Source of the DNA: Desulfobotulus pelophilus
GTDB taxonomy: Bacteria; Desulfobacterota; Desulfobacteria; Desulfobacterales; ASO4-4
Assembly: GCF_026155325.1 (NCBI RefSeq)
Contig: NZ_JAPFPW010000001.1
Span: 248,001 to 312,000, forward strand
Length of the DNA: 64,000 bases
Direction of reading: 5' to 3'
In this document: positions 6,437-31,100 of the stretch, piece by piece
How the letters are laid out: each line of letters starts with the position of its first letter
Position numbering within the stretch: the first letter of the stretch is position 1
Translations under genes and position numbers: made by a program
Notes under the pieces: generated by a model
What the model saw: the letters and a program-made list of their open reading frames with translations, nothing else
Told to the model about the DNA's origin: nothing
The model's database searches: none

Positions 6437-7267
6437 TCAGTTCCATAGATTCTGCCAGCATCCCATATAGCGGTACCCCTGAAGAATGGCAGGAATGGCC
6501 GGTGCGGGTATACCTTTGAAAACGCTCTGGCGCAGAAGGGTGCCCAGCACTTCCCTGGCCGAAGGGAAATAACCTTCCTGAATTTTCCCGCGTATACTGC
6601 TTTCCAGAAACCATGGACCTTTTCTGCAACAGGGGAAGCTCTGGAAATTTTCTGCGGCAGTCCTGGCGTTTTCACGGATGTTTCTCTGAATGTCGGCCGT
6701 TTTTTTGGTGCTGGTTTTTTTCTTGGGAATGGTTACGGTACGGATCCATGGAATGTTCTCCTTGATTCGCTGGCATGCAGGAAAGTCTGCCGTGACAAGG
6801 GCAACAGGTATGCGGGCTTCTGCGAGAACAGCTGCCATGATCTCCACTTCGCTAACAGGCTTCTTTTCCAGACGGACCCAGTCGATGTCCCTGTGGAAAA
6901 TATGGGGGCTGAAAGCTTCCGGTTGATCCGGTGCACCGTGCCATCCTATCATCAGTGCCAGATCTGCCTCGGGGATATGGCCGAGTAGGGGGACTGGGTA
7001 CCAGTGATGCCCCTGCTGCAGTCTGATACCTTTTTCCGGCAGTAGGCGGGGAAGAATATTAAATCCTGTGGCATGCATGTCCCGTATATGGATGATTTCC
7101 ACCCCGGCATCTTTCAGGCCGGCAATGGCTGCGCTGACATCTGCTGTAATGAGGTTGCGGGCCTCCTGCCATTCCGCTGTGAGAGGTTTGCACTGTTTTT
7201 TTTCATAAACACCTGTTATTCCTTCTATATCCGCAAGAATAAGGGCTGATTTCGGAGTTGGTTTCAT
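6437..7267 (-). CDS. M55 family metallopeptidase (DppA-like D-aminopeptidase)
   Basis: This 276-residue protein matches the M55 family, represented by Bacillus DppA, a zinc-dependent D-aminopeptidase. The N-terminal ADIEGITG motif supplies Asp13 and Glu15; RDMHATG (His65) and MIGWHG (His110) are the other likely metal or catalytic positions. No signal peptide is visible, so it is probably cytoplasmic. The ATG overlaps the stop of the cation transporter by 4 nt (ATGA) and has GGAGG upstream, indicating translational coupling. The true substrate is not shown by the sequence; recycling of D-amino-acid peptides is the family expectation. Confidence 0.85.
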   Translation of the reverse strand: MKPTPKSALILADIEGITGVYEKKQCKPLTAEWQEARNLITADVSAAIAGLKDAGVEIIHIRDMHATGFNILPRLLPEKGIRLQQGHHWYPVPLLGHIPEADLALMIGWHGAPDQPEAFSPHIFHRDIDWVRLEKKPVSEVEIMAAVLAEARIPVALVTADFPACQRIKENIPWIRTVTIPKKKTSTKKTADIQRNIRENARTAAENFQSFPCCRKGPWFLESSIRGKIQEGYFPSAREVLGTLLRQSVFKGIPAPAIPAILQGYRYMGCWQNLWN

Positions 7268-8187
7268 GGGTCGCCTCCATGGCAGTTGAGGGGGTGATGG
7301 GGAGGGGTAAGGGGATCCGGAGGTTCAATATGGATGACCACGTCTTCCATGTGAGCATGTTTCCGGATGAGAAGCTGGCGCACTTCTTCGGCTATGGCGT
7401 GCGCTTCCCGTACAGAAATATCGCCGTTTACCACCAGATGAATGTCTGCAAAAATTCGGGTACCCAGAAAGCGGGTTCGAACATGGTGGGCATCCAGCAC
7501 CGCAGGGTGGCTGCAGGCATGCAGAGTGATGCTGTTGCATATTTCAGGGGACGCTCCTGATGCCATGAGTTCCTGGAAATTAGGCCATACAATACGGGTT
7601 GCGGCCTGTGTAATAAAAACGGATACAATCAGTGCACCAATGGTATCCAGAAAGCGCAGCTCAGGGAATAATATGGCCGCCGATACGGCAAGAAAGGCGG
7701 GTATGGAGCTTAAGGCGTCAATGCGGTGATGCCAGGCATTGGCCATGACAGCGGAGCTGCCCACTTCCGTGCCTACCTTATGGGTCCATCGGTAGATGGC
7801 TTCTTTGGCAAATATGGAGAATGCTGCTGCATAGGCCGCTATGGGGGTGGGCTGGGTTTTGTAGCCTGCAAGGAGATTTCTGGTTGCTTCTACACCGATA
7901 CCGATACCCGCAAAGAGCAGAAGGGTTCCTATGAAAAGGGTGACAAGGGTTTCAATACGGCGATGCCCGTAGGGATGGCTTTCGTCTGGTGGAAGTGTCC
8001 AGAAGGCGGCACCGGCTATCACAACGATATCTGTTATGGCATCGGTGGCAGAATGGACGGCGTCGGCCATAAGGGCTTCGCTGCTGCCCCACCATCCGGC
8101 CGCGTATTTGATACCGACGAGCAGCAGATTGACAAGAAGGCCGGCAAAGGTGACGTATTGTATACGTTTTCGTAGGTCGGAACCCAT
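7264..8187 (-). CDS. Cation diffusion facilitator (CDF) metal transporter
   Basis: This 307-residue inner-membrane protein has about six hydrophobic segments in its first 215 residues, followed by a cytoplasmic C-terminal domain. Metal-site motifs are visible: HSATD (His45, Asp49) in the second helix, HPYGHRRIE in the following loop, and HHRID near residue 153. This HxxxD plus HHRxD pair is typical of CDF exporters in the Fe/Zn/Mn-related group. The family exports divalent metal by proton antiport; the specific metal cannot be read from the sequence. Its ATG follows directly on the yciH stop (TGAATG), and its own stop overlaps the start of the M55 peptidase. Confidence 0.92.
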   Translation of the reverse strand: MGSDLRKRIQYVTFAGLLVNLLLVGIKYAAGWWGSSEALMADAVHSATDAITDIVVIAGAAFWTLPPDESHPYGHRRIETLVTLFIGTLLLFAGIGIGVEATRNLLAGYKTQPTPIAAYAAAFSIFAKEAIYRWTHKVGTEVGSSAVMANAWHHRIDALSSIPAFLAVSAAILFPELRFLDTIGALIVSVFITQAATRIVWPNFQELMASGASPEICNSITLHACSHPAVLDAHHVRTRFLGTRIFADIHLVVNGDISVREAHAIAEEVRQLLIRKHAHMEDVVIHIEPPDPLTPPHHPLNCHGGDP

Positions 8188-8547
8188 TCAGCCCCCGGCT
8201 TTTTTGGCTTTGAATCCCTTCTGGCTGAGCCAGGTAAGGATGGTGTCTCTGTGGTCTCCCTGAATCTCAATGTGTCCATCTTTGACGGTTCCGCCGCTTC
8301 CGCATTTTTGTTTCAGTTCTCTGGCCGTACTATGGATAAGCTGTCCATCCAGTCCGGAAACCAGAGTTACTCCCTTTCCCTTGCGGCCCTTGGTTTCTCT
8401 GCTGACGCGGATAGTGCCGTTATTATGGGAGGTATTGCTTTTGGTTTGGCTACAGATGCAGTTTTTTGCGGGTTTCTGGCAGCCCGGGCAGATGCGGCCC
8501 AGCTCCGATGAATAGACGAGGGCGTTGTTGTCTTGAGTTGAATTCAT
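8188..8547 (-). CDS. yciH: YciH, SUI1/eIF1-like translation factor
   Basis: The predicted 119-residue protein has an N-terminal zinc-ribbon-like cluster (CPGCQKPAKNCIC) and a C-terminal SUI1 domain with CGSGGTVKDGHIEIQGDHRD. YciH proteins influence start-codon selection and are related to eukaryotic eIF1. The ATG at 8547 is preferred; another in-frame ATG at 8559 directly abuts the AAGGA element and would have no spacer. A small palindrome (8551-8567) overlaps the ribosome binding site. It leads an operon with a CDF transporter and an M55 peptidase, an uncommon combination. Confidence 0.88.
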   Translation of the reverse strand: MNSTQDNNALVYSSELGRICPGCQKPAKNCICSQTKSNTSHNNGTIRVSRETKGRKGKGVTLVSGLDGQLIHSTARELKQKCGSGGTVKDGHIEIQGDHRDTILTWLSQKGFKAKKAGG

Positions 8548-8550
8548 AAA

Positions 8551-8567
8551 TGTAAGCATTCCTTACA
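8551..8567. promoter_or_regulatory. Palindrome over the yciH ribosome binding site
   Basis: TGTAAG (8551-8556) and CTTACA (8562-8567) are separated by 5 nt and cover the AAGGA of yciH. It could be an operator or a translation-masking hairpin; no repeat copy was noticed. Confidence 0.35.
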
Positions 8568-8721
8568 AAAGCGTAAAACAATATCACCTGCCAGTATAGC
8601 ATAGCCTGTTTTTTTGTGAATTGTCACGAACAGCCTGTGACGAGGAACGTCAGTTGTACCGTGTCATGTTGTTTATGACCTTATCAGTACTTGCCGACGC
8701 CGTATAGATGCAAAATAGTCC

Positions 8722-8750
8722 TTGACGGAAAAGAGTATGTCCTTTATACA
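8722..8750 (+). promoter_or_regulatory. Promoter of the TetR gene
   Basis: TTGACG (8722-8727) and TATACA (8745-8750) are separated by exactly 17 nt, a good sigma-70 arrangement. The -10 element lies inside the left arm of the long palindrome at 8741-8789, so bound TetR should block this promoter. Confidence 0.7.
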
Positions 8751-8789
8751 TGCTCATGACTGACATTCAGTCATGAGCATGTATAAAGG
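8741..8789. promoter_or_regulatory. 49-nt perfect palindrome containing the TetR operator
   Basis: The arms 8741-8763 and 8767-8789 are exact reverse complements of 23 nt around a 3-nt centre CAT. The core TGACTGA-CAT-TCAGTCA (8757-8773) recurs at 9452-9468 before the exporter genes. The palindrome spans the -10 element, the expected transcription start and the AAAGG of the tetR ribosome binding site. It can therefore act as a DNA operator and, if transcribed, as an RNA hairpin. Confidence 0.85.
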
Positions 8790-8796
8790 AGTTCTT

Positions 8797-9387
8797 ATGG
8801 AAAAAAAAGAAAAAATTATTGCCGCGGCCATAGATGTTTTCAGGGGAAAAGGTATTGAAAAGACAAAGGTTTCCGATATCGTTAAGGCCGCCGGAATTGC
8901 TCAGGGAACATTTTATCTCTACTTTCCTTCCAAATTATCTGTCATGCCGGATATCGCATCGGTTATGGTCCAGAGAACCGTTGCTGAGGTGCGGGAACGG
9001 GTGAGGGAGGAAGGCAGCTTCTGGACGCGGATGGAAGAGCTGGTGGATGTTGTTTTCCGCCTGACGGAAGAGTACCGCGATGTGCTGGCCCTCATTTATG
9101 CGGGTTTATCCCAGACAAGGCATATTACGGAGTGGGAAACCATCTATGCACCTTTTTATGAGTGGATGGGGCTGTTTCTTCGCCAGGCACAAAATAACGG
9201 GGAGATACGCAGTACCCTTAACGCAGACCGGACAGCCAAGCTTCTCATCGGTCTCATTGAATCCACTGCGGAGCAGATTTATCTTTATGATGCCCTGCCG
9301 GAGAAGGAGAAGGTTGCTTTTCAACAAAGAGAGCTGATGGATTTTATGCGGTATGGATTGATTTGCGAAGAAAGCAAACGGGCTTGA
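8797..9387 (+). CDS. TetR/AcrR family transcriptional regulator of the SMR pair
   Basis: This 196-residue regulator has an N-terminal TetR helix-turn-helix: IIAAAIDVFRGKGIEKTKVS, then IVKAAGIAQGTFYLYF, the classic recognition-helix pattern. A helical ligand-binding domain fills the rest. The ATG at 8797 is preferred because AAAGGA (8785-8790) precedes it by 6 nt; an in-frame ATG at 8773 lies within the operator. Its placement before a paired SMR exporter matches the yvdT-yvdSR arrangement of Bacillus. Matching palindromes in front of both units indicate that it represses itself and the exporter and is released by an exported compound. Confidence 0.9.
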   Translation: MEKKEKIIAAAIDVFRGKGIEKTKVSDIVKAAGIAQGTFYLYFPSKLSVMPDIASVMVQRTVAEVRERVREEGSFWTRMEELVDVVFRLTEEYRDVLALIYAGLSQTRHITEWETIYAPFYEWMGLFLRQAQNNGEIRSTLNADRTAKLLIGLIESTAEQIYLYDALPEKEKVAFQQRELMDFMRYGLICEESKRA

Positions 9388-9451
9388 GTCGATTGCTTTG
9401 ATTATGGAGCAGGTCTTTACCTGTTGCTGGCTACAACGCGGAGCTGATTTG

Positions 9452-9468
9452 TGACTGATATTCAGTCA
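9452..9468. promoter_or_regulatory. Second TetR operator, in front of the SMR genes
   Basis: TGACTGA-TAT-TCAGTCA differs from the core of the upstream operator only in the centre. It ends in the A that begins the AGGAGG ribosome binding site of the first SMR gene, so repressor binding would also cover the translation start region. Confidence 0.85.
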
Positions 9469-9479
9469 GGAGGATGAAA

Positions 9480-9815
9480 GTGAATAAGTCGTGGGTGTAT
9501 GTAGGGCTTACCTGCCTGTTTGAGCTTTTCTGGGTGTATGGTTTTAATGTGGCCTCCTCATGGTGGCACTGGGTAATCATTGTGGGGATTATTCTGGTAG
9601 ATTTTCATTTTTTATCAAAGGCATGTGAAAAGCTCCCCACGGGAACGGTTTATGCTGTATTTGCGGCTGTTGGTACCGCCGGAACGGCACTGATGGACGT
9701 GGTACTGTTTGCTGCGGATTTTCATTTGCAGAAGGGGCTTTTCATTGTTCTTATCATCATAGGGGTCGTCAGTCTCAAACTGGCTGATAATCAGGATGAA
9801 GGGGAGGTTGGATAA
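9480..9815 (+). CDS. Small multidrug resistance (SMR) exporter subunit 1
   Basis: This 111-residue protein with four hydrophobic segments has the SMR membrane Glu in CLFELFWVYGF (first helix). Paired SMR proteins form antiparallel heterodimers that exchange protons for cationic drugs or guanidinium-like compounds. A GTG at 9480 is chosen: AGGAGG (9468-9473) lies 6 nt upstream, whereas the ATG at 9474 touches it with no spacer. The short charged C-terminal tail overlaps the ribosome binding site of the partner gene. No guanidine riboswitch was recognised; control appears to be by TetR. Confidence 0.85.
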   Translation: MNKSWVYVGLTCLFELFWVYGFNVASSWWHWVIIVGIILVDFHFLSKACEKLPTGTVYAVFAAVGTAGTALMDVVLFAADFHLQKGLFIVLIIIGVVSLKLADNQDEGEVG

Positions 9816-9816
9816 A

Positions 9817-10137
9817 ATGGGCTGGTTGTTGGTTTTTTTAGCAGCGGTTTCGGAAATTATTGGAGTGGTGGGTTTAAAAATGTACAGTACGCAGAAAAAA
9901 AATGCGGTCAATACCCTGCTTTTTGTGGGTGGATTTGGCTGTGCTTTTGCCCTTCTCTATGCATCATTTCAGTTTCTTCAGCTCAGCATTGCCTATGCTG
10001 TCTGGATAGGAATGGGCACGGCGGGGGGGGTCCTGGTGAATATGATTTTCTTCGGAGAATCCAGAAATATGGGACGAATTATCAGTGTAGTGATCATTGT
10101 TGCCGGTGTGACGGGCCTGAAAGCTGTTTCCGTCTGA
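9817..10137 (+). CDS. Small multidrug resistance (SMR) exporter subunit 2
   Basis: This 106-residue, four-helix membrane protein has the conserved SMR glutamate in AAVSEIIGVVGLK and the loop motif SIAYAVWIGMGTAG. The ATG at 9817 lies 1 nt after the stop of subunit 1 and follows GGGGAGG (9801-9807). The two subunits share this unit and presumably form one heterodimeric transporter in the inner membrane. A terminator follows at 10225. Confidence 0.9.
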   Translation: MGWLLVFLAAVSEIIGVVGLKMYSTQKKNAVNTLLFVGGFGCAFALLYASFQFLQLSIAYAVWIGMGTAGGVLVNMIFFGESRNMGRIISVVIIVAGVTGLKAVSV

Positions 10138-10224
10138 TATGGCTTCCGGTTACTGTTCAGACTGGATGATATTATGCGGATGAGGGCCTGTGGTTCTGAC
10201 TGGAGTCTGGTCATGTATGGGAAG

Positions 10225-10261
10225 ACCGTTGCAAGAATGATTTTTTGCAGCGGTTTTTTTT
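10225..10261 (+). terminator. Rho-independent terminator after the SMR pair
   Basis: ACCGTTGCAA (10225-10234) pairs with TTGCAGCGGT (10245-10254), including one G-T pair, and is followed by a run of T to 10261. Confidence 0.85.
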
Positions 10262-10351
10262 GTCAGAAAGTTGCTGTATTTCTCTGTACCCGGTAAGAAA
10301 AGGGTCTAACGAGATGTCTTGCAGGGAGTAAATGGCAGCTAAGGGAGATTG

Positions 10352-11110
10352 ATGGTGAGCACAGAAGGTCATGGCGGGCAGCAGATCTGGAAGAGTGCGG
10401 AGCAGGCTGCGGCAGGATTGGAAAAACTGGCGGATGGAACCTATGCCCGGACTTTGCAGCGTTTTTTTAAAACGGGTCCCGGGGAGTATGGGGAAAAGGA
10501 CCGATTTCTTGGTGTGCGGGTGCCGGTTCTGAGAAGGCATATGGGTGCAGGCGCATCCATGGACCATGAAGAGGTTGGAAAGCTGCTGGCATCTCCCTGG
10601 CATGAGGTTCGGATGTTTGCCCTGTTACTGTGGGTGGATCGTTATAAAAAGGGGGATGAGAGCCGGAAAGAAATGATATTCAAAGATTATCTTTCCCGTA
10701 CGGCTTGCGTGAATAACTGGGATCTTGTGGACGTTTCGGCTCCGGGTATTGTGGGAACCCATCTGCTGACACGGGAAAGGCACCTGCTCTATGAGCTGGC
10801 TGCCTCCGTTTTGCTATGGGATCGCCGTATTGCCATGGTATCCACCCTTACCCTGATACGTCACGGTCTCTATGACGATGCCCTGCGGCTTGCGGATATC
10901 CTTTCCCATGATACGGAACCCCTGATACACAAGGCTGTGGGTTGGATGCTGCGGGAGGTGGGGAAGGGCGACAGAAATTTATTGGAGAATTTTCTTGCCC
11001 CCAGATGCCGCCAGCTTCCCCGCATTCTTCTCCGGTACAGCATAGAACATTTTTCGGCAGATTCCCGGAAAGTATGGCTTTCCGGGAATCTGCCGACGGG
11101 ACTTTCATAG
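10352..11110 (+). CDS. alkD: DNA alkylation repair protein, AlkD-like
   Basis: This 252-residue protein is made of HEAT-like helical repeats. It shows AlkD-family landmarks: FLGVRVPVLRR, NNWDLVDVSAPGIVG, SVLLWDRRIAMVST and HKAVGWMLREVGK. AlkD is a DNA glycosylase that removes bulky or cationic alkylated bases without base flipping. The ATG at 10352 follows AAGGGA with good spacing. The last 15 or so codons lie in a perfect 18-bp inverted repeat, so the C-terminal tail after the family core (RYSIEHF) may come from an inserted palindromic element. Confidence 0.85.
   Translation: MVSTEGHGGQQIWKSAEQAAAGLEKLADGTYARTLQRFFKTGPGEYGEKDRFLGVRVPVLRRHMGAGASMDHEEVGKLLASPWHEVRMFALLLWVDRYKKGDESRKEMIFKDYLSRTACVNNWDLVDVSAPGIVGTHLLTRERHLLYELAASVLLWDRRIAMVSTLTLIRHGLYDDALRLADILSHDTEPLIHKAVGWMLREVGKGDRNLLENFLAPRCRQLPRILLRYSIEHFSADSRKVWLSGNLPTGLS
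11055..11095. repeat. Perfect 18-bp inverted repeat in the 3' end of alkD
   Basis: Bases 11055-11072 and 11078-11095 are exact reverse complements around TATGG. The repeat begins with CGGCAGATTCCCGG. It lies inside the coding region and ends 15 nt before the end of the stop codon. Convergent ald ends 36 nt further on. It has no T-tract but could limit read-through in both directions. Confidence 0.8.
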
Positions 11111-11131
11111 GTAGTGGATGGGGGTAAAGGA

Positions 11132-12250
11132 TTATTCGTAAAAAGATTTTTCCACAGGTGTATAGTCCAGATCAAAGGCTTCGGCCACTCCCTTACAGGT
11201 TACATGCCCCCGGACAATGTTCAGACCTTTCTGCATTTCCGGAAACTCCCGTACGGCTTCCAGAAGGCCATTGCTGGCTATGGCAAGGGCATAGGGCAGG
11301 GTGGCGTTGGTCAGGGCTATGGTCGATGTCATGGGAACGGCTCCCGGCATGTTGGAAACACAGTAGTGCAGTACGCCATCAATTTCATAAACCGGGTCAT
11401 CGTGGGTTGTGGGCCTGGATGTTTCTATACATCCACCCTGATCAATGGCCACATCCACAATAACGGAACCGGTTTTCATGGTTTTCACCATTTCTCTTGT
11501 GATCAGTTTGGGTGTTTTGGCTCCGGGAAGCAGTACGGCTCCGATAATGACATCTGCTTCGCTGACTTTTTGGCGGATGATGGCTGGTGAGCTCATGATG
11601 GGTACACAGTTTTTGGGCATGGTGGCGGAAAGATAGCGCAGCCTGTCCAGCCGGGTATCAATAAGATCCACCTGAGCACCGAGTCCGCAGGCCATGAGAG
11701 CGGCGTTGGTGCCAACGGTACCACCGCCAAGGACGAGAACGCGGGCTGGAGGAACTCCCGTTACTCCACCGAGAAGAATCCCCCTGCCTCCGTGGGTCCG
11801 TTCCAGATATCGTGCTGCTTCCTGTACAGCCATGCGTCCGGCTACTTCGCTCATGGGAATCAGCAGGGGAAGGCCGCCATTATTATCTTCAATGGTTTCA
11901 TAGGCCAGAGCAATGCCTCTGGTGCGTATAAAGGCATGGGTGAGCTGTTCATAAGCCGCAAAATGAAAATAGGTAAAAACGATCTGATCTTCCCGTATCA
12001 GATCATATTCCGATGGCTGGGGTTCCTTGACGTGCATGACCATTTCTGCATCTGCAAAGATATCCGCCGGGTTTCCCACCAGACGTGCACCCGCACCGGC
12101 GTAGGACTCATCGTCAAAACCCGATGCAGCCCCTGCATTTTTTTCCACAAGAACGGAATGGCCGTTGGCCACCATAATTTCGACTCCGGCGGGTGTCATG
12201 GCAACACGATTTTCCTGATGTTTGATTTCTTTGAGAATGCCGACAATCAT
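11132..12250 (-). CDS. ald: Alanine dehydrogenase
   Basis: This 372-residue enzyme, normal length for the family, interconverts L-alanine and pyruvate plus ammonia with NAD. The N terminus MIVGILKEIKHQENRVA is typical, followed by VKEPQPSEYDLI and FHFAA near the substrate site and the NAD-binding VLVLGGGTVGTNAA. The ATG at 12250 follows AAGGA; a longer reading frame to 12307 has no support. It is convergent with alkD. In this organism it could feed alanine into the pyruvate pool next to the lactate pathway. Confidence 0.95.
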   Translation of the reverse strand: MIVGILKEIKHQENRVAMTPAGVEIMVANGHSVLVEKNAGAASGFDDESYAGAGARLVGNPADIFADAEMVMHVKEPQPSEYDLIREDQIVFTYFHFAAYEQLTHAFIRTRGIALAYETIEDNNGGLPLLIPMSEVAGRMAVQEAARYLERTHGGRGILLGGVTGVPPARVLVLGGGTVGTNAALMACGLGAQVDLIDTRLDRLRYLSATMPKNCVPIMSSPAIIRQKVSEADVIIGAVLLPGAKTPKLITREMVKTMKTGSVIVDVAIDQGGCIETSRPTTHDDPVYEIDGVLHYCVSNMPGAVPMTSTIALTNATLPYALAIASNGLLEAVREFPEMQKGLNIVRGHVTCKGVAEAFDLDYTPVEKSFYE

Positions 12251-28137: not shown

Positions 28138-31100
28138 ATGATGACTGTAAAAAACACGAGCCGCCTGTTTCTGATGGGAATCATGTTGTCTGTTTTGCTG
28201 CTTTCCGCTGCGGCAGGTGCGGACGAAAGATTGAAAAAGAGGGTGGTGTATCTGAATTCCTATGAAGATGGCTATGTCTGGTCTGACACCCTGCTGCAGG
28301 GAGTACGGGATGTGCTGCAGGAAACGTCCTATGCCGTTGAGCTGCATGTGGAATACATGGATACGAAACGTTATCCGGATCCCGGCCTTCGTCCTTACTT
28401 GATGGATCTGTATGCGTATAAATATGGTGACCTTTCCATCGATGCTGTAGTTGCAGCAGATGACTATGCCTTTGATTTTATACTGGAACACAGAGATCTG
28501 CTTTTTCCTGGAATTCCCATAGTCTTCTGCGGGGTTAATGATTATCAGCCCCATCGGATAGAGGGGATTCCCGCCATCACCGGTGTGGCGGAAAGCTTCA
28601 GTGTGGTGGAGAATGTGGAACTGGCGCTCCGATTCCGGCCTTCTGCCAGACGTATGGTGGTGGTGGGAGATGAGTCTTTTACGGGAGGAGCCACCATGGC
28701 CGTTATCCGTCAGGTGGCTCATCTTTTTGAGGACAGACTGGATATTGAGTACTGGTCTGACCTTGATATGGAGGTTGCCATCGATGCTGTGGGGCGTTTG
28801 CCTGAGGATACCTTTATTTTTTATGTGCCATATTATGAGTATCTTCAAGGAACTTATTACAGTGCGGATGATATTCTGGAGCGTATCTGTCAAAATGCCA
28901 GTGTTCCGGTATTTACTTTCTGGGAGTTTCTTATGGGTTCCGGAGCAGTGGGAGGACAGCTGACCAGCGGATCCCGCCATGGAAAAATGGCTGGTGAGAT
29001 GCTTGTGCAGGTTCTTGACGGCATGCTTCCTGAAAAAATTCCTGTGATTACAGAAGATCCTTATATTTTGCTTTTTGATTATCTGGCTTTGCAGCGTTGG
29101 GGCATCCGTTCGGCACTCTTGCCGGACGGAAGCCATTTTATTAATGAGCCCAGGCATTTTTATGAACTGAACCGGGAGGTTTTCTGGACAATCATGGGAA
29201 GCATGGCTCTGCTTGCCGGTGTTCTCATTCTTCTTGTACTGAACATTGCAAGACGCAGGGTGGTCGAGGAAAAAATAAAGGACCAGCTGTCTTTTCTGAA
29301 AATTTTAATGAATACCATCCCCATTCCCATTTATTTTAAGGATAAAGGGGCTCGTTTTCTGGGTTGCAATAACAGTTTTGAGCAGTGGTTCGGTGTACAG
29401 GTGCGTAATATCGTGGATAAGGGAGATGCCGTATTGCAGGGTCGGCATCCCGTGCGACTCAGTGATGAGGTGGATGATGCCCTGTTTCGGGATCCCGGCG
29501 TTCGGGTGTATGAGAACCGCATATATGATGCCTCCGGAGTTTACCGTCATGTGATTCTGACCAAGGCGACCTATCTCAATGCCAGGGGGGAAATTCTTGG
29601 CCTGGTGGGGGTGATCAACGATGTACATGACATCAAGACAGCCCAGGAGAATTTATGCATTGCTGAAGAACGGTACAGAAGTATTTTTGAAAACGTATCC
29701 AAAGGCCTTTTTATTGCCAATCCTGAGGGGCGGTTGACCCATATGAACAGGGCCTTTGCCCGGATTCTCGGGTACGGCACGGAGGGTGAGGCTCTTGAGA
29801 AAACCGGAGGTCTTCTGGAATTCCATTATGTGGATCCTGAAAACCGTAAAGTCTTTTGGGAAATATTGTTGTCCGGCAGAGAAGTGGCCGGTTTTGAGCT
29901 GGCCTTTTATACCCGTGACAGAAAGAAGCGATGGGCCGCTTTGAATGCCCGTGCCGTCTATGATACCGAAGGCAGGATGGTGCATGTGGAGGGTATTGCG
30001 GAAGATATCACCAAGCGCAGGCGGGCGGAAATGGCCCTTATGGAATCCCGCCAGCGGCTTTGGCTGGTGCTGGATAATATTCCCCAACTGGTTTTCTGGC
30101 AGGACCGTGAGCTGCGTATCATGGGGATGAACCGCAGTAGTGCGGGGTTTTTCGGTTTGGAAAACGGGCCGAGGGTGATAGGAAAAACCCTTTTTGAGCT
30201 GCTGCCGGATAAAGATGATGCCGCCATGCTGATGGAAAGGGGAGAGAGGGCCGTGCAGCTGCAGGAGCCAGTCTACCGTTTTAAATGCAGAATTCAGGAT
30301 GGACGGGGACGCAAGGTGTGGCTGGAAATCAACAAGGTTCCCCTGATTGGTGCGGATGGTGTGGCCAATGGTGTTTTGAGCTGTGCGGAGGATATCACGC
30401 AGAAGGTGACTCTGGAGCGGCAGTTGCTGCAGAGCCAGAAAATGGAGGCGCTCGGAAGGCTTTCTGGTGGTATTGCCCATGATTTTAATAATATTCTTAC
30501 TTCTATTATCAATTCCGCTGAGCTGGCCATGGAGGATCTGGAAGAGGGCAGTATGGGAAGAAGGGATCTGGAAAGGGTCCTCCGCGCCGGAGAACGGGGC
30601 AGTGGAATGATTAAAAAAATTCTGGCCTTCAGTCGTCCCGGAAAAGAAGAATTCCAGTGTGTGGATTTACGGCCGGTTATTCAGGAAGGGCTGGACCTTC
30701 TGCGTACATCCGTTCCCGGGCACATTCGCCTGGAGGAGAATTTTTGTGCTGAGCAAGCCCTTGTCTGCATGGCCGATCCTACACAGATTCATCAGGTACT
30801 GATGAATCTGTGTACCAATGCCCTGCAGGCCATGGGAATGCTGCCCGGTGTGCTGGAAATAGCTTTGACCTCTTTAGCCCTTGATGATACGAGCGCCATG
30901 GCCCTGGGGCTGCCTCCTGGTTTGTTTGCAAGGCTTACGGTAGCCGATAACGGGCCGGGTATCGATTCCGTTGTTCTGGATAAGATTTTTGATCCTTTTT
31001 TCACCACAAGGGAAAAAGGGGGCGGGAGCGGTCTGGGGCTTTCCATGGTACACGGCATTGTCAGAGCCCATGGAGGGGTTGTTCAGGTTAGCAGTGTTCC

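Follow-up and report, generated by a model that had tools for sequence, protein, structure and literature searches.

In Bacillus subtilis, the gene for the TetR repressor YvdT presumably adjoins yvdSR. Short palindromic operators of a related kind are known from the same organism, where the FadR site has the form TGAnTGA-N3-TCAnTCA. YvdR and YvdS themselves are described in PMC2716321 as a paired SMR system for which no drug resistance has been demonstrated.

The window analyzed here, a stretch of 64,000 nucleotides from the genome of Desulfobotulus pelophilus, carries a YvdT-like repressor gene with adjacent paired SMR genes, and a 17-bp operator core lies before tetR and again before the SMR genes. 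Of the relatives with solved structures, B. subtilis YvdT (2f07) scores best against the window's repressor. The operator is similar in form to those of FadR-type TetR autoregulators with 17-bp operators, but the protein differs, scoring 61.7 with the FadR model against a cut-off of 200 bits. Unlike the B. subtilis yvdT system, the copy in the window resides in a Desulfobotulus genome and has its tetR operator inside a 51-nt perfect palindrome. The regulatory core is a known kind of self-limiting repressor; the long palindrome is a rare, lineage-specific feature among the genomes compared.

The matches listed in literature searches on TetR operators that form perfect palindromes across a ribosome binding site, on paired SMR proteins with TetR, and on hairpin-guarded read-through describe no such arrangement, and those listed for YvdT, YvdR, and YvdS were mostly unrelated sequence strings.

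The tetR-SMR locus and its sister in Desulfobotulus alkaliphilus

The module consists of three genes:

8797 to 9387, plus strand: tetR, YvdT-like TetR repressor, 196 aa (Pfam TetR_N and TetR_C_26; B. subtilis YvdT, 2f07, at 6.3e-44)
9480 to 9815, plus strand: first SMR subunit gene, GTG start, 111 aa (Pfam Multi_Drug_Res)
9817 to 10137, plus strand: second SMR subunit gene, 106 aa (Pfam Multi_Drug_Res; 93% identical in D. alkaliphilus)

The repressor exceeds the cut-offs of 24 and 25 for its two domains (TetR_N, 51.7 bits; TetR_C_26, 134.3 bits). Both SMR proteins match PF00893 (58.5 and 79.1 bits) and fall below every cut-off of the NCBIfam SMR models listed, so that no named subtype is assigned. 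The two tandem SMR genes encode a putative paired SMR exporter. The start codon of tetR was set by its SD together with the D. alkaliphilus alignment, where ATGGATAAAAAA aligns; at the first SMR gene, an ATG at 9474 corresponds to GTG in D. alkaliphilus, and a start there would touch the SD.

The D. alkaliphilus locus comprises eight genes in the same order as in the window, the eighth being cut by the end of the locus. Upstream of tetR, its DNA aligns well through AAAATAGT and CTTGACGGA; past CTTGACGGA and up to the tetR start codon, the core alone aligns closely. That tetR-side core has one mismatch, in a left half that reads TGAATGA, and stands without long arms in a tetR leader that is 6 nt shorter than the window's and has a different SD. 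On the SMR side, the operator and the adjoining SD are identical in both Desulfobotulus species.

Two operator cores and probable ordinary TetR control

Two sites are predicted as TetR operators:

8757 to 8773, no strand assigned: predicted TetR operator 1, TGACTGACATTCAGTCA, at the expected tetR transcript start; core conserved in orthologs
9452 to 9468, no strand assigned: predicted TetR operator 2, TGACTGATATTCAGTCA; identical 17-mer in D. alkaliphilus

The core TGACTGA-N3-TCAGTCA is present in exactly two copies, one before tetR and one before the SMR pair, where the initial annotation had placed them, and these are the sole exact matches in the window as well as in the 3.66-Mb genome. Near-matches are few: four others in the window, all with three mismatches, for about two matches expected by chance, and three other places in the genome, each with two mismatches. 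The final A of operator 2 (9468) is also the first base of AGGAGG (9468-9473), the SD of the first SMR gene, so the abutment described earlier at this site is visible in the sequence as an overlap of one base.

Conservation was assessed across 81 loci: every one of the 79 matches from genomes of the Viridibacillus arenosi family, plus the loci of the window and of D. alkaliphilus. In 70 of these, tetR is followed within 700 nt by SMR genes on its own strand. Among these 70 tetR-SMR loci, with the window and D. alkaliphilus included, a core at no more than two mismatches lies before tetR in 56, before the SMR genes in 63, and at both positions in 50, which leaves 20 loci without one or both cores at this stringency. 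Each of 60 scrambled palindromes, searched in the same 70 loci, was found at most once before tetR, at most once before the SMR genes, and never at both. Several loci of similar layout (L050, L053, L056, L058, L061, and L063, for example) show no tetR-side site even at three mismatches. The contrast between 50 of 70 loci and none for the scrambled controls supports the proposal of twin operators, one serving tetR itself and the other the two exporter genes.

The best reading of these predicted sites is ordinary two-operator TetR control. A dimer of the YvdT-like TetR protein would occupy both copies of the 17-bp operator. Bound to operator 1, which covers the expected tetR transcript start, the repressor would shut off its own gene; bound to operator 2, at the SMR pair's ribosome binding site, it would prevent initiation at the exporter genes or passage into them. 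Both operators would be freed by a putative small ligand.

A 51-nt perfect palindrome around operator 1

The surroundings of operator 1 hold four further features:

8740 to 8790, no strand assigned: perfect palindrome of 51 nt, 24-nt arms around CAT (100% complementary, 3-nt centre)
8722 to 8727, plus strand: -35 hexamer TTGACG of the tetR promoter, from sequence; block CTTGACGGA conserved in D. alkaliphilus
8745 to 8750, plus strand: -10 hexamer TATACA, in the left arm, 17 nt after the -35 hexamer, read by eye
8785 to 8791, plus strand: ribosome binding site AAAGGAG of tetR, first six bases in the right arm

A perfect palindrome had been reported here at 49 nt with 23-nt arms; it is real, and each arm is one base longer than was thought. 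Its described reach, over the -10 box, the transcript start, and AAAGG, also agrees with what we find, with TATACA inside the left arm, AAAGGA (8785-8790) ending the right arm, and the start falling within the palindrome if it lies where we expect it. When contigs C1 and C2 (844,631 of the genome's 3,656,775 bases) were scanned for perfect inverted repeats with a centre of at most 20 nt, 37 had arms of at least 13 nt, and the repeat at 8740-8790 was the longest in those 844,631 bases, with an arm of 24; the next five have arms of 19 nt, and several of the five are followed by T runs in the manner of terminators. The palindrome is not a product of chance: first-order Markov sequences matched to each contig in composition, five for each, had longest arms of only 10-13 nt.

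The arm has no second match in the genome at up to three mismatches. A mobile-element end or a dispersed repeat, considered as a source of the palindrome, is ruled out by this absence of a second copy.

Symmetry beyond the core is a different matter from the core itself. Across the 55 other tetR-side sites, pairing within the core is 1.00 at six positions and 0.49 at the fourth; outside it, pairing is 0.71 and 0.65 at the first two positions and 0.40-0.47 at positions three to six, and from the seventh position onward it is close to the 0.28 of the background. At operator 1 of the window, all 17 outer pairs match. Perfect arms of at least 12 nt occur at nine of the 55 sites and arms of at least 20 nt at none; at 62 other SMR-side sites, perfect arms around the core reach 12 nt at most. 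When perfect inverted repeats of any kind, with or without the core, are counted in the 250 nt before tetR, the window reaches 24 nt and the 80 other loci no more than 17. Comparing the upstream regions of orthologous loci, the check that had been suggested for this palindrome, separates the two elements: the 17-bp core is conserved, and the full arms are not. Judged by this conservation, there is no sign of selection on the arms, and chance is excluded as their source.

In some Bacillota loci (L027, L040, L043, and L044), A runs and T runs on either side of the tetR-side operator extend the arms around the core to 13-16 nt, and the arms finish in T runs just before a TTGAC box. The operator in these loci may double as the terminator of the preceding gene.

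Promoter position and RNA folding

The tetR transcript is expected to start at about 8757, the first base of the core, some 7 nt past the -10 hexamer; the consensus promoter scan demands a T at position 6, and TATACA is consequently not listed by it. Since the left arm holds the -10 box, the promoter's own transcript would be without the outer left arm, and its ribosome binding site would be free. RNA folded from 8757 forms a 7-bp core hairpin, with AAAGGAG unpaired in the minimum-energy fold and a z of -0.26 against shuffles.

The initial annotation had suggested that the palindrome forms half of a double lock, in which TetR represses transcription and a hairpin in the mRNA may cover the ribosome binding site of tetR. 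RNA that begins at or before 8740 does suit such a design: a hypothetical transcript from 8740 folds into the full 24-bp hairpin with AAAGGA paired (z -9.8), and one from 8700 gives a z of -6.9. However, the -10 box in the left arm puts the start of tetR's own transcript inside the palindrome, where AAAGGAG is left unpaired; the consensus scan lists no plus-strand promoter-like site at 8500-8740; the upstream neighbor gene (8188-8559) is on the minus strand, divergent from tetR; and the long arms are found in none of the 80 other loci. A start that leaves no full hairpin had been named in advance as the observation that would count against the design, and it is what the sequence predicts. The twin operators of the transcriptional half are supported by their conservation, whereas the RNA half is unlikely on the normal transcript, and the combination is in our estimation very improbable indeed. 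An RNA lock on the native transcript is rejected as unlikely, on the promoter position together with the absence of long arms from the other loci compared.

Only transcripts that originate upstream of the palindrome and run into tetR would have its ribosome binding site hidden. A guard against read-through could be built on this property, with the full hairpin forming only in such transcripts and silencing tetR there while the native transcript is translated normally. Hairpins that guard against read-through translation are a principle familiar from transposase genes of insertion sequences, although the matches listed on hairpin-guarded read-through include no paper on it, and the anatomy fits, given that the full hairpin needs a transcript start upstream of the palindrome. 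Yet read-through into tetR should be rare with the upstream neighbor on the minus strand, and the lack of long arms in the 80 other loci weighs against it as well; we regard such a guard as very improbable. More generally, a striking palindrome that covers a ribosome binding site is not necessarily an RNA switch when it also contains the promoter.

On the SMR side, a 75-nt RNA folds no better than its shuffles (z -0.78). Its minimum-energy fold, 4% of the ensemble, pairs AGGAGG with downstream coding sequence, and the centroid pairs only part of it. There are no Rfam matches at gathering score in 7000-11500, guanidine riboswitches included, and a known riboswitch was dropped from consideration on that ground.

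A template switch as the probable source of the arms

The best explanation of the outer 17 nt of each arm is that they are not part of operator recognition and arose after the split from D. alkaliphilus. The arms are probably recent and the result of a template switch, a replication accident rather than an extra RNA lock. In one event, the nascent strand would fold on the operator core and use one flank as template, which would turn the other into its reverse complement, and the new flank would have retained a usable -10 box and SD. A single switch primed by the core would account for the 17 extra perfect pairs at once. Template switches that make perfect hairpins in one step are described by Monttinen and Loytynoja 2022 (PMC8794818); the hairpins treated there resemble the one in the window in being one-step perfect reverse-complement repeats absent from a sister sequence, and they differ in belonging to RNA genes, whereas the window case concerns a promoter and operator. 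The reverse-complement copy in the window is likewise absent from its closest ortholog, that of D. alkaliphilus.

Clues to the direction of copying diverge. Set against the D. alkaliphilus promoter side, the left arm shows some resemblance (shuffle p 0.017, a value biased by the -10 box that both must have); the right arm shows none to the D. alkaliphilus leader (p 0.57). In a wider alignment, the left region gives p 0.24. A control in which the D. alkaliphilus left flank was compared with the reverse complement of its own leader also returned p 0.017, which makes the arm-direction test a weak one. The arm resemblance suggests left-to-right copying, in what is a weak test with a single close ortholog; copying the other way is suggested by the left half-site, the one in which the two species differ.

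The long palindrome might instead have been selected as DNA, either as an extended or tighter TetR site or as a supercoiling-responsive cruciform that removes the -10 box. The perfect 51-nt symmetry is centred on the operator, as this would have it, and some Bacillota arms are extended too, by mostly A/T stretches (the nine of 55 that reach at least 12 nt; longest 17). Against this, the perfect arms of operator 2 are just 7 nt in both Desulfobotulus species, and the outer arms show no further TGACTGA half-site; we consider selection of this kind improbable. Broadened to a selected switch of either sort, whether a supercoiling-driven cruciform unpairing the -10 or a guard confining tetR translation to RNA from its own promoter, the idea is still unlikely.

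Perfect symmetry, and arms seen in one assembly only, could also betray an assembly or library artefact in the form of a fold-back chimera. Both flanks of the palindrome nevertheless align to D. alkaliphilus in the right order, and a fold-back chimera would not rejoin tetR; nor does the arm have another genomic copy within three mismatches. An artefact is exceedingly improbable.

If the arms did come from a template switch, they offer a natural example in which an operator-seeded replication accident might alter promoter and ribosome binding site together in a single step, with neither destroyed.

Probable acquisition of the module from Bacillota

Among 58 relatives, the repressor is found at E 1e-15 or better in two, the own genome included. 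At 1e-25 or better it is present in two of 291 genomes of the class (own genome included), both of the same genus, and in the Viridibacillus arenosi family (Bacillota) it occurs in 78 of 200 genomes; these class and Bacillota counts rest on samples drawn from larger groups, with the best 16 or 11 candidates per genome scored. Within the class sample, D. alkaliphilus is the other holder, and a third Desulfobotulus genome gave no repressor match. A Cyclobacterium relative (L013, 32%) was excluded from the counts, and a search of plasmids yielded one record at E 1e-15, 33% identical.

A tree of 42 hand-chosen proteins out of the 81, with L093 (internal stop) left out, joins the two Desulfobotulus rows (99/99) and places them among the other rows without firm support. 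Probably the tetR-SMR module (8797-10137) was acquired from Bacillota before the two Desulfobotulus species split, a direction to which the distribution points. The regulatory core would then be common to Bacillota and a sulfate reducer apparently through transfer. The account as a whole, in which two-site TetR control belongs to a module derived from Bacillota and the lineage-specific arms were added by a template switch, we judge to be likely.

Other inverted repeats in the window

A 35-nt perfect palindrome with 16-nt arms lies at 30780-30814, in a reading frame that translates as DPTQIHQVLMNLCTNAL, which we take to resemble the N-box of sensor histidine kinases; a perfect inverted repeat within a conserved coding motif is odd. 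At 11054-11096, an inverted repeat with perfect arms of 19 nt occupies the end of a DNA alkylation repair gene, before a convergent gene, and is possibly a two-way terminator that overlaps coding sequence.
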